Shown here: positions 33,767 to 44,522 of the stretch, piece by piece
Layout of the letters: every line of letters starts with the position of its first letter
How positions within the stretch are numbered: position 1 is the first letter of the stretch
Assembly (NCBI RefSeq): GCF_023571765.1
Contig: NZ_JAMJXC010000006.1
Coordinates: 62,001 to 126,000, forward strand
Direction of reading: 5' to 3'
Length of the DNA stretch: 64,000 nt
Source: Xanthobacter aminoxidans
GTDB taxonomy: Bacteria > Pseudomonadota > Alphaproteobacteria > Rhizobiales > Xanthobacteraceae
Made by a program: the position numbers and the translations under genes
The notes under the pieces: model-generated
The model's input: only the letters and a program-made list of their open reading frames with translations
Told to the model about the DNA's origin: nothing
Database searches by the model: none

Positions 33767-34906
33767 TCAGGCCGTACGTTCTTCAAGCGGATGGGTGCGC
33801 AGGCGCAGCGGGTCGTAGAAGGGCGTCTTCACCACCCGCGCCGCGAACGTGCCGTCGGCACCGCGGACCTCCAGCTCGGTGCCGCAAGCGGACAGCTCCG
33901 GCACCACATGGGCGAGGGCGAGGGAGCGCATGAGATAGCGGCTGTAGGCGGTGGAGTTCACCAGCCCCACTTCCTTGCCGTCCCGGAACAGCTTGGCGCC
34001 GGGTTCCACGGCGGCGTGGTGGTCGATCTCGACCCCCACCTGCGCCACCCGCTCCTGCCCCTTGCGGCGCACCAGCGCGTCGCGGCCGCGGAAGGCGGGC
34101 TTGGACAGGTCCACCGTCCAGCCGAGGCCCACTTCCCACGGGGTGGTGTCGCCCTGTGGCATGTCGTAGGGGAAGAACAGCAGGCCACCCTCCACCCGCA
34201 CCACGTCGAGGCAGGACCAGGAGACCGGCATGGCTCCGACCGGCTTTCCGGCGGCGAGAATGGCATCCCACAGGGCCACGGCATCGGCCGCCGCGCAGAA
34301 CACCTCGTAGCCCCGCTCGGCGGAATATCCGCCGCGGGCGATGGACACCGGACGGCCGAACAGCGTCGTGCGCTGGTGCCCGAAATAGGGCAGGGTCTCC
34401 AGCGCGAACGGGGTGTTCGGGTTGAGGATGTCGAGCGCCTTCGGCCCCTGCAGGGACATGATGTGGACGTCGTTGTCCTTGGTGAAGGTCACGTCCCGGC
34501 CCGCCGCGACGCCGGGCAGGATGTCTTCCAGCGAGCCGCCGCCGTGGGAGATGCGATAGGCATTCGGCCCGTCGCAATAGATCAGCACGTCGTCGATGAG
34601 CGAGCCGTTCTCGTCCACCACGCTGGTGAGCGAGGAGGCGCCGGGCGCGATCTTCGAGATGTCCGAGGTGCACATCTCGTTCAGCACGGCGAGCGCTTCC
34701 TTGCCCGCCACGTCGATCATGCGCAGCGCGGAGACGTCGAACAGGCCGGCGGCGGTGCGCACCGCGATGACCTCGTCATAGGTGTCGGTGGCGTAGTTCT
34801 GCGGCACCGGCATGTCGTTCCAGGAAGCCTCGAAGGCGGTGCCGAGCGCGCGGTGGCGGTCGGACAGCGCGGAGAGGCGCGAGAAGGCGGAAAGTCCCTG
34901 TGTCAT
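33767..34906 (-). CDS. GcvT-like folate-dependent aminomethyltransferase domain protein
   Basis: A 379-aa stand-alone protein of the GcvT/DMGDH-C-terminal family, which binds tetrahydrofolate and accepts a one-carbon unit from an amine. Visible are FDVSALRMIDVAGKEA, SSLTSVVDENGSLIDDVLIY and GGYSAERGYEVFCAA (GcvT usually has GYTGEDGFEI). It is the last gene of the TMADH operon, 19 bases after the permease gene. No glycine-cleavage partners (gcvP, gcvH) are nearby, so a role in capturing formaldehyde from methylated amines as 5,10-methylene-THF is the best inference, parallel to the GcvT domains of dimethylglycine dehydrogenase and TMAO demethylase. Confidence 0.85.
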   Translation of the reverse strand: MTQGLSAFSRLSALSDRHRALGTAFEASWNDMPVPQNYATDTYDEVIAVRTAAGLFDVSALRMIDVAGKEALAVLNEMCTSDISKIAPGASSLTSVVDENGSLIDDVLIYCDGPNAYRISHGGGSLEDILPGVAAGRDVTFTKDNDVHIMSLQGPKALDILNPNTPFALETLPYFGHQRTTLFGRPVSIARGGYSAERGYEVFCAAADAVALWDAILAAGKPVGAMPVSWSCLDVVRVEGGLLFFPYDMPQGDTTPWEVGLGWTVDLSKPAFRGRDALVRRKGQERVAQVGVEIDHHAAVEPGAKLFRDGKEVGLVNSTAYSRYLMRSLALAHVVPELSACGTELEVRGADGTFAARVVKTPFYDPLRLRTHPLEERTA

Positions 34907-34925
34907 CCTGCATGTTCCTTGCGGA

Positions 34926-42290: not shown

Positions 42291-42314
42291 CCGCTCTGAC
42301 CAGGACGAGGGGAA

Positions 42315-44522
42315 CTAGCCCTGGTAGCGGATCTCGTAGGAGCCGCCCGGCTGGTAGGGCGAGCCGTAGACGGCAGCTTCGCGCCGGTAGGGCTTGGGCT
42401 CCTGCGGGTTCGCCTCTTCGATCTCGCGGGCAAGACGCTGCCCGTCGAAGGTGGCATCGGCGATGAGCTTGGGCGCCCAGGCGTCGCCGATCACGTACAC
42501 GCCCTTGATGCCGCGGGCGTCCCACTCGCCGGAGCGCGCCTTGAGGGCCCGGAACAGGGCATCCTCGGAGCGGCGGGCGGTGACCAGCACGAGGGTGTCG
42601 TATTCGTGCCAGGCGTGGGTGGTGTTGGCACTGCGCGGCATCTTGCCGGGGCCGGTATAGACGCGCTTATGCCCGTCGCCCCAGAGGTTGTAGAGCTCGA
42701 TCCGCCCGTCTTCCACGCGGCTCGCCCAGGTGCTGGAAAGCACGTTGATGTGCAGCTCATGCAGCATGCGGTGCATGTTCGGCGCTTCAAGCGTGAAGTG
42801 CATGTAGCGACCGAGTTCCACGCCCGACGCCACCGTCACCTGATGCCCTGCCTCCGCCAGCTTCTGCGCGAGGCTCGGCGCCATGTAGTAGGGGTCGGCA
42901 TTGAGGATCATCACCCGCTTGCCGATGGGCTTGGTGCCGAGGATGACGTCTTCCGGCGTCAGCACATTGGCGCGCGGCGTGCCTTCCAGGCCCGGGATGG
43001 GCGCGTGGGTGAGGCAGTTGGTGCCGTCCGTGACCCAGTGGGCGCCGGTGGCGATCACCACCTTGTCGGCGCCGTAGGAGAGCACGTCCTCCACCGAGAG
43101 CTTCTTGCCGCCGAGGGCGATCTGGCTGTCGCGGTTGCGCTTCACCAGCTTGCCGAGCTGCACCTCGCGATAGTCGCGGTGATAGCTCCACTCGCCGAGG
43201 CCCGGCAGGGTGGCCACCTCGTTCACATAGCCACCGACCTTCTCGGCGCTGTCCACGAGATGGACCACATAGCCGCGCTCCATGAGCACGCGGGCGCACT
43301 CGGAGCCGGAGGGGCCGGCGCCCACCACCAGGATGGCATCGTCCGAGCCCTTCTTGGGGAAGCGCTCGGGATGCCAGCCGCGGCGGAATTCCTCGCCGGC
43401 GGTGGCGTTCTGGGTGCAGATCATGGGCGGGCCGCCGATCTCCCAGCGGGAGATGCAGACGTTGCAGCCGATGCAGGTGCGGATGTCGTCGAGACGGCCG
43501 TCGCGGATCTTCTCCGGCAGGAAGGGATCGGCGATGGAGGGGCGGGCGGCGCCGATGACGTCCAGCTCGCCGTTGCGGATGACCTCGACCATCTTCTCCG
43601 GATCGGTGAAGCGGCCGACGCCCAGCACGACCTTCTTCGAGGCCTGCTTCACGAACTTCTGCCAGGAAAGCTGGTGGCCCTGACGGTAGAAGCGGGAGGG
43701 ACCGGCATCCTCGCCCCACTCGGCGATGTCGCCCACGTTCACGTCCCACAGGTCGACGAGGTCGTCGGCCAGCTCGACGAACTTGAGGCCGTCGCGCTCC
43801 ACCTCGATGCCGTCCTCGCCGATCAGCGTATCGACGGCGAAGCGGGTGGCGATGGCGCATTCGGAGCCCACCGCCGCCTTCATCTGCTCCAGGGTCTCGA
43901 CCCAGAAGCGGGCGCGGTTTTCGAAGCTGCCGCCGTACTTGTCGGTGCGCTTGTTGTAATACTTGGAGAGGAACTGCAGCGGCAGGTAGGAGTGCGCGCC
44001 GTAGCAATAGATAATGTCGAAGCCGGCATCGCGGGCGCGGCGGGCCGCCTCCACGTAGAAGCCCTGCACGCGACGGATGTCGTCGTAGTCCATCTCGTGG
44101 CAGTAGGTGAGGGATTCGAACTCGGAGGCGTACTGGCTCGGGCCGCGCGCGGTCTGGCGCGTCTCCATGCACGGGGCGTGGGCGCCGCCGTACCACAGCT
44201 CGACGCCCGCGAGCGCGCCGTATTTATGGATTTCCGAGGTCATCGCGGCGAGGTTGCGCACGTCGCCCTCGTCCCAGATGCGGGCGGAGACGCGGTGCGT
44301 ATCGTCCGATTCCGGGTGGATGGAGCAGTATTCCGTGTTGAGGGCCGCCCAGCCGCCTTCGGCCTTGATGGAGCGGTGCGCGGCCTGGAAGCCGGGCTTG
44401 TCGGAACCGGCGCCGATGCAGTGCGGCACCTGGTAGAAGCGGTTCCGAAGGGTTTTCGGCCCGATCTTGATGGGCTCGAAAAGAATATCGTATTTGCTGA
44501 CACCCAGCGTTTCGTGCGTCAT
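42315..44522 (-). CDS. tmd: Trimethylamine dehydrogenase
   Basis: A 735-aa FMN/[4Fe-4S] enzyme that oxidatively demethylates trimethylamine to dimethylamine and formaldehyde. It closely resembles Methylophilus TMADH through its length. Cys35 in [17 protein letters not shown] equals the cysteine that binds FMN covalently. The cluster ligands are Cys350, 353 and 356 (CIGCNVC) and the Cys in PPMIC. The substrate aromatic bowl is kept: Tyr in LNTEYCSI (TMADH Tyr60), Trp in [10 protein letters not shown] (Trp264) and Trp in [10 protein letters not shown] (Trp355). Tyr60 is Gln in dimethylamine dehydrogenase as I recall, so trimethylamine is favoured. The C-terminal half is the ADP-binding domain ([15 protein letters not shown]). 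It heads a seven-gene operon including its acceptor ETF. Confidence 0.93.

Follow-up and report, generated by a model that had tools for sequence, protein, structure and literature searches.

A conserved trimethylamine dehydrogenase operon in Xanthobacter aminoxidans with a candidate DgcB-type electron exit and an LRV solenoid protein

Seven minus-strand genes lie between positions 33767 and 44522 of a stretch of 64,000 nucleotides from Xanthobacter aminoxidans (contig NZ_JAMJXC010000006.1, positions 62,001 to 126,000; hereafter the window). Together they probably form a dedicated operon for the catabolism of trimethylamine (TMA), combining uptake, trimethylamine dehydrogenase (TMADH), an electron path from an electron-transferring flavoprotein (ETF) through a DgcB-type protein to quinone, formaldehyde capture and an LRV adaptor. 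The gene identities, the conserved residues and the conserved linkage behind this view are direct observations. An earlier sequence-only reading had placed the seven genes here and named them as TMADH, its ETF, a DgcB-like protein, a permease, a stand-alone GcvT and an LRV protein. All seven open reading frames (ORFs) were found in place, and these identities hold, with the permease now assigned to the TmoP type, the DgcB-like protein to the EtfD/DgcB type and the folate-binding GcvT-like protein to the relatives of DmmD. The same reading considered the combination unusual, which it is not: TMADH, DgcB, EtfB and EtfA stand together in all 36 testable loci, of which 32 also have the LRV gene and 31 a clear TmoP. 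What we describe is a conserved operon with a known enzyme, a known ETF, a plausible membrane exit and a newly noted LRV protein that seems specific to it, related as a new variant to the known DgcA-DgcB-ETF kind.

The counts come from a survey of 46 TMADH-family loci, covering close relatives only and rich in Methylophilaceae; because the search finds such relatives, the 36 counted loci are not independent. Testable TMADH loci have a TMADH of at least 70% identity and at least 6.5 kb of downstream sequence. The identity threshold is reached by 41 of the 46, and L011, L019, L030, L034 and L041 were excluded for short downstream sequence (L011 has DgcB, LRV, EtfB and EtfA, L030 has part of DgcB, and in the remaining three the sequence stops at TMADH or shortly behind it). 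Presence was scored by tblastn even for broken genes, as with DgcB, EtfA and GcvT in two pieces in L022 and a partial LRV gene in L042. On this basis DgcB, EtfB and EtfA each score 36/36 and LRV 32/36, and anywhere in the fetched stretch a clear TmoP is found in 31 loci and a GcvT-like gene in 17. The TmoP count is given as 31 rather than 32 because the copy in L051 is only 26% identical. Since the core order recurs in all 36 testable loci, the linkage is not due to chance; co-occurrence by chance only was what the earlier reading had named as refuting it. Five loci fall below 70%, of which L052 was excluded for its short sequence; among the remaining four, which are of dimethylamine-dehydrogenase type, one (L044) has the module together with TmoP and three have none of the six genes.

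The operon core spans alpha-, beta- and gammaproteobacteria. Within the same family, a TMADH match (E<=1e-150) occurs in 6 of 149 genomes: four (counting the own genome) of the seven congeneric genomes sampled, and two of another genus at 49% identity. One member of this set (G489) shares its coordinates with L009, so the two probably represent one genome. All seven genes are present in L009, L050 and the same-genus loci L126 and L127. Among the loci seen, only these Xanthobacter strains have the direct TmoP-GcvT tail after EtfA. Elsewhere TmoP lies mostly upstream of TMADH (though also after EtfA in L018, L024 and L044) and GcvT is absent or otherwise placed.

The first gene (42315..44522, 735 aa) is, judged by its sequence, a true TMADH, for which TMA oxidation is predicted. 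It aligns over residues 10-734 with PDB 1djn at 1269.9 bits, against 533 bits for histamine dehydrogenase. Residues C30, Y60, Y169, H172, W264, D267 and W355 are kept, as are the four cluster cysteines; we take Cys30 to be the flavin link, Tyr60, Trp264 and Trp355 to be the bowl, and Tyr169, His172 and Asp267 to be further active-site residues. Position 344, where we assume Val to lie on the electron path to ETF, is Thr in the window copy and in several relatives. Residue 60 is Tyr in every copy of at least 70% identity where it could be read (L011 is cut off there, and L019 and L041, having no complete TMADH ORF, are outside the alignment). It is Gln in ten full-length copies at 61-65% identity and in the fragmentary L052, a set presumably of dimethylamine dehydrogenase (DMADH) type. 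The Tyr60 and Gln60 sets form separate clades with 100/100 support. The enzyme of L044 is of the Gln60 type and comes with the full DgcB-LRV-EtfB-EtfA set and TmoP.

The ETF matches this assignment. Its beta subunit (37801..38595, 264 aa) matches 1o94 chain C best, at 288.9 bits against 133.7 for the runner-up, and its alpha subunit (36830..37801, 323 aa) reaches 342.6 bits to 3clu chain D (next other ETF 128.8). The operon ETF is therefore closest, by more than two-fold in bits, to the ETF co-crystallised with TMADH.

Between TMADH and the ETF genes lies a gene for an EtfD/DgcB-type iron-sulphur protein (40011..42173, 720 aa), a candidate ETF:quinone oxidoreductase with 250 bits to PDB 9ojn. 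It has the Pfam Fer4 and CCG domains and two CxxCxxCxxxCP ferredoxin motifs. Invariant in 38 rows are the eight ferredoxin-type cysteines, the CCG cysteines 597, 632, 633 and 672, and His91, His254 and His272; the N-terminal part (13-204) matches QmoC below the cut-off (46 of 300 bits). According to the available text of a 2026 report, DgcB is without the cysteines of cluster D1 and may accept ETF electrons at D2 (PMC13083937). This fits the operon protein, in which the D1 cysteines, those of the first CCG cluster, are not among the conserved ones.

The strongest new hint of ETF-to-DgcB transfer is a fusion. L125 carries at 9682-12996 a single ORF of 1104 residues consisting of DgcB (51-728) and EtfB (852-1104), followed 4 bases later by EtfA. 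A counterpart is found in L124, of the same genus (ORF ending at 12917), and Pfam confirms both parts. Further in favour of the proposed path, 18 of 20 DgcB loci from other genomes have a TMADH-family dehydrogenase, DgcB and EtfA in a row. DgcB occurs in 31 of 398 genomes of the phylum, and these 20 loci are DgcB neighbourhoods fetched from among the other 30. As a separate observation, beside the fusion stands a third TMADH-family type (C30 kept; F60, T169, D172, F355, R442), with genes for an aldehyde dehydrogenase, a permease, a class-III aminotransferase and a PAS-domain protein nearby.

The permease (34926..36641, 571 aa, GTG start) scores 878.7 bits with NF053774, the curated 'trimethylamine N-oxide permease' model (cut-off 690); TMA or its oxide is the predicted cargo. 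A search with a passed positive control found no catalytic half of Tdm in the 46 TMADH-family loci, and TmoP in these loci accordingly goes with TMADH. The conserved gene order suggests a TMADH-linked branch within the 'TMAO permease' family, one that may transport TMA itself. Elsewhere in the own genome, contig C17 encodes a Tdm (1293 bits, cut-off 1100), a second TmoP (848 bits, cut-off 690; 53% identical to the operon TmoP), a PF11927 oxygenase subunit of dmm type and a reductase that we take as its partner. We give this subunit no dmm letter, since the 'DmmA-like' name in Pfam denotes the 200-residue subunit. The organism thus seems to have two entry routes that meet at dimethylamine (DMA): TMA by way of TMADH, and trimethylamine N-oxide (TMAO) by way of Tdm.

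The last gene (33767..34906, 379 aa) encodes a GcvT-like tetrahydrofolate protein with domains PF01571 and PF08669, matching the T-proteins 1yx2 and 1woo and Tdm 9q5a. D106, E201 and R237 are invariant in 18/18 rows; the Asp and Glu align with positions 96 and 195 of the Thermotoga T-protein, the Arg lies further on, and their roles are presumably those of the T-protein residues. A true glycine-cleavage GcvT is rejected (TIGR00528 189.4 of 235.85, NF001567 213.3 of 300), as is Tdm itself (NF053776 224.9 of 1100, in the C-terminal part of the model only). We call the protein DmmD-like because its kin head a dmm cluster downstream of EtfA in several Methylotenera loci. The stand-alone folate-binding GcvT domain is present; linkage to dmm genes is seen in seven relatives' loci and not in the window.

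Taken together, the following course of events would be predicted for this organism. TmoP would import TMA or its oxide, and TMADH would oxidise TMA to DMA and formaldehyde. The two electrons would pass from flavin mononucleotide (FMN) to the 4Fe-4S cluster, then to the operon ETF, the EtfD/DgcB-type membrane protein (with a probable b-haem region, two 4Fe-4S clusters and one CCG non-cubane cluster as proposed cofactors) and finally quinone. The GcvT-like DmmD homologue would bind formaldehyde as methylene-tetrahydrofolate, and DMA would be passed on to an enzyme of dimethylamine monooxygenase (dmm) type whose genes lie elsewhere in the genome. For the TMADH-ETF-DgcB chain, the LRV solenoid would be a protein-protein adaptor or assembly factor.

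A number of observations weigh against this scheme. The LRV gene is missing from 4 of the 36 TMADH loci. The GcvT-like gene is missing from 22 of 39 and present in 17 (L019 and L041, without a complete TMADH ORF, are excluded from this tally). A canonical ETF-ubiquinone oxidoreductase (ETF-QO) is encoded in 19 of the 20 genomes searched (19 from TMADH loci and one from a DMADH locus); the own genome has it too, as two long ORFs and one fragment. The genome from the DMADH locus, Methylotenera mobilis 13, encodes ETF-QO without DgcB. As for the published DmmD, Ruegeria pomeroyi without dmmD still converted TMA to DMA, which accumulated, according to the available text of PMC5520151; and in Paracoccus aminophilus the loss of dmmD stopped growth on DMA, with a weaker effect on TMA, according to that of PMC4543880.

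The LRV protein (38604..40007, 467 aa) matches PF01816 at 84.6 bits (cut-off 21.6), and LRV repeats are matched in 31/31 relatives. Its model (pLDDT 95.3) is an LRV/HEAT-type solenoid, for which the 50 Foldseek matches shown are mostly generic HEAT/ARM-type solenoids, plus 1lrv. The latter, the LRV iron-sulphur protein of Azotobacter, has an N-terminal domain with an iron-sulphur cluster; in contrast, Pfam gives no match to such a domain in the window copy or in the 31-row family tally. Of the five core genes LRV varies most (30-58% identity to the window copy, apart from the near-identical L009), yet 28 of its 35 invariant positions are within residues 256-439. At E<=1e-20 the LRV profile finds only the own genome among the same 398 genomes in which DgcB was counted, a figure of little weight by itself, as TMADH-type operons could be equally rare. 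None of the 20 other DgcB neighbourhoods fetched contains LRV. Among ten named genomes, six have a single strong copy adjoining DgcB, and the other four, whose tmd locus is without LRV, have no such copy; hits elsewhere are weak, at 46.7 bits or less. Being seen only in tmd-type operons, the LRV protein may be a dedicated assembly or docking factor, and a putative adaptor or assembly role is the simplest reading.

Since the loci without LRV (L010 and L016/L018/L024) sit in different supported clades among LRV-bearing rows, LRV appears to have been lost at least twice, by eye and parsimony on the tree; the tree program counts one change, with unlabelled rows left out. Residues common to the LRV-less rows amount to 1 column in TMADH and 0 in DgcB and EtfB, which is the control range for these three proteins. 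EtfA has 3 shared columns against 0-1 in seven controls, with too few losses to give this weight.

Instead of docking the chain, the LRV protein might aid maturation, either by FMN attachment and cluster loading in TMADH or through the non-cubane cluster of DgcB. We regard this as a real possibility, if not one that we would expect to prevail. In favour of it, LRV was seen only with TMADH-type operons, and in the older literature recombinant TMADH is reported to be incompletely flavinylated in E. coli. Yet four TMADH loci manage without LRV, and L044 pairs it with a Gln60 enzyme, so that LRV does not track Tyr60 TMADH alone. Returning to the docking role, the fusion in L124 and L125 has a linker of about 120 residues at the position held by the LRV gene in tmd operons. 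It might tentatively be argued, as an idea we hold doubtful, that the TMADH-ETF pair normally works within a larger membrane chain running on to DgcB, with a dedicated LRV solenoid to dock or assemble it, as if the DgcB-EtfB fusion and LRV solved one docking problem.

The place of the GcvT-like gene can also be read differently: it might belong functionally to DMA oxidation, as DmmD, and stand here only since both steps are needed together. The PF11927 dmm-set oxygenase gene shares the locus in 7 of the 17 GcvT-bearing TMADH loci, and published dmmD lies together with dmmABC in marine bacteria (PMC5520151). The P. aminophilus mutants cited above, with no growth on DMA and a milder defect on TMA, point the same way. 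On the other hand, nine TMADH loci have the GcvT-like gene and no dmm genes in the fetched stretch (L017, cut off, is excluded; in L051 the distance to the gene is about 5 kb), and L027 and L039 carry a gene of DMADH type in place of dmm genes. In L039 one GcvT-like copy is beside the TMADH operon and another beside DMADH (2212-5821; 9983-18770). The own genome, too, has another GcvT-like protein (65% identity), encoded on contig C17 about 8 kb from the PF11927 gene. The published record is divided: once dmmABC had been restored in R. pomeroyi, growth on TMA and TMAO required dmmD and growth on DMA did not (PMC5520151), which disagrees with the P. aminophilus report (PMC4543880), and the term trimethylamine dehydrogenase is absent from the text of both papers. 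A role confined to DMA oxidation we consider unlikely, and formaldehyde capture at the TMADH step would remain our reading. Independently of this, folE2 (GTP cyclohydrolase, folate) is found near tmd in 16 of the 46 loci (for example L017, L021, L023 and L026) and ribBA-type (riboflavin) genes also in 16, mostly the same ones; one representative of each was confirmed. These genes could represent cofactor supply near a flavin and folate pathway.

The quinone exit is the third point at which another reading can be made. Because canonical ETF-QO is co-encoded, it could reoxidise the ETF, and DgcB would then serve otherwise (for another donor, or under certain conditions). The 19 of 20 genomes with ETF-QO, and the own genome, fit such a view. 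So does the nicotine cluster of Agrobacterium S33, where Pno, a TMADH relative, uses EtfAB and the EtfQO of its own cluster, as described in the available text of PMC7688666; this resembles the operon in clustering a TMADH-family enzyme, its own ETF and a quinone exit, but the exit is canonical ETF-QO and not DgcB. A review names ETF:CoQ oxidoreductase as ETF partner, in general terms only in the text available (PMC8097209). An exit through ETF-QO is nevertheless improbable in our view: DgcB adjoins TMADH and ETF in 36/36 loci, the DgcB-EtfB fusion speaks against it, and the metagenome-assembled genome of L033, which may be incomplete, has the operon with no ETF-QO seen. The opposite extreme, DgcB as sole possible quinone exit, is rejected, as ETF-QO is nearly always encoded too. 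We thus retain DgcB as the probable, not exclusive, acceptor of the operon ETF.

Comparison with known systems places the operon among them. Methylophilus methylotrophus TMADH-ETF (PDB 1djn, 1o94) is the same enzyme with the same type of ETF, and the locus of strain DSM 46235 (L029) has DgcB, LRV, EtfB and EtfA in the same order; unlike the window, it has TmoP upstream of TMADH, no GcvT in the fetched locus, and dmm genes following. The DgcA-DgcB-ETF operons of dimethylglycine demethylation, in which we assume the dehydrogenase to be DgcA, share the row of dehydrogenase, DgcB and EtfA already counted, but the dehydrogenase is distant (176-215 bits), EtfB where seen follows EtfA, and LRV is absent from all 20. 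Mycobacterial EtfD (9ojn) agrees in domain order and sequence, but the operon protein is shorter, and the D1 cysteines are not in its conserved set. The name DgcB itself appears in PMC13083937. Finally, the dmmDABC and tdm-tmoP pathway for TMAO (Methylocella, Ruegeria) resembles the operon in TmoP and a DmmD-like GcvT; it differs in being a monooxygenase and demethylase route with no TMADH, and the own genome holds such a set on C17.

The pair of TMADH and its ETF is a standard example of how electrons move between proteins. Conservation of the gene order directs attention to an EtfD/DgcB-type protein and to a new accessory protein, both testable in a cultured methylotroph. In the open-access papers searched we found no paper joining 'trimethylamine dehydrogenase' with dgcB, EtfD or LRV and no description of this operon, a search that the original cloning papers probably, and older subscription papers mostly, fall outside.

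Regarding the locus itself, the own genome measures 5.8 Mb, and Xanthobacter sp. YC-JY1 has a TMADH with 99% identity to the window copy. The spacing in bases is TMADH-141-DgcB-3-LRV-8-EtfB-(1-base overlap)-EtfA-188-TmoP-19-GcvT. The sequence-only reading had put hairpins in both large gaps. This stands for both: in the TMADH-DgcB gap (42174..42314, minus strand) a strong hairpin folds better than shuffles (z -3.55), and in the EtfA-TmoP gap (36642..36829, minus strand) one lies in the EtfA-proximal part (z -2.70 for 36690-36829), with no folding excess over shuffles in 36642-36760 (z 0.33). Directly 3' of GcvT is a terminator-like hairpin (33621..33644, minus strand; 10 pairs, 9 of them G-C, then TTTTT, read from 33644 to 33621), which makes GcvT the likely end of the operon. 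In total the scan gave 7 such sites against 4.4 (sd 2.2) in shuffles, so their number alone means little. Upstream of TMADH, a palindrome of 20 bases (44717..44736, no strand assigned) is a candidate operator; L009 has all 20 bases unchanged, and L050 differs at one of them. Its 16-base core occurs at one place in the own genome with at most one mismatch, against four for a backward-read control pattern. Rfam gave no match at gathering thresholds over 28000-50000 of the window, and the promoter scan found no sigma-70 promoter-like site.

Some neighbouring genes may also be mentioned. Upstream of the operon the window encodes a FIST-domain protein (44909-46063) and a SpoIIE-type phosphatase with a cNMP-binding domain (46520-47932). 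Just past the terminator-like hairpin, the product of 32415-33572 has a weak LuxR-type match at its C-terminus and is a possible regulator. A periplasmic binding protein (Peripla_BP_6; 28967-30316) possibly belongs to an amine uptake system, and a cluster with this type of protein occurs in 7 of the 46 TMADH-family loci (the copy in L053 was confirmed). At 52359-55348 a FAD-binding flavoprotein of Succ_DH type is followed immediately by a HEAT-repeat protein, giving another redox enzyme beside a solenoid protein.

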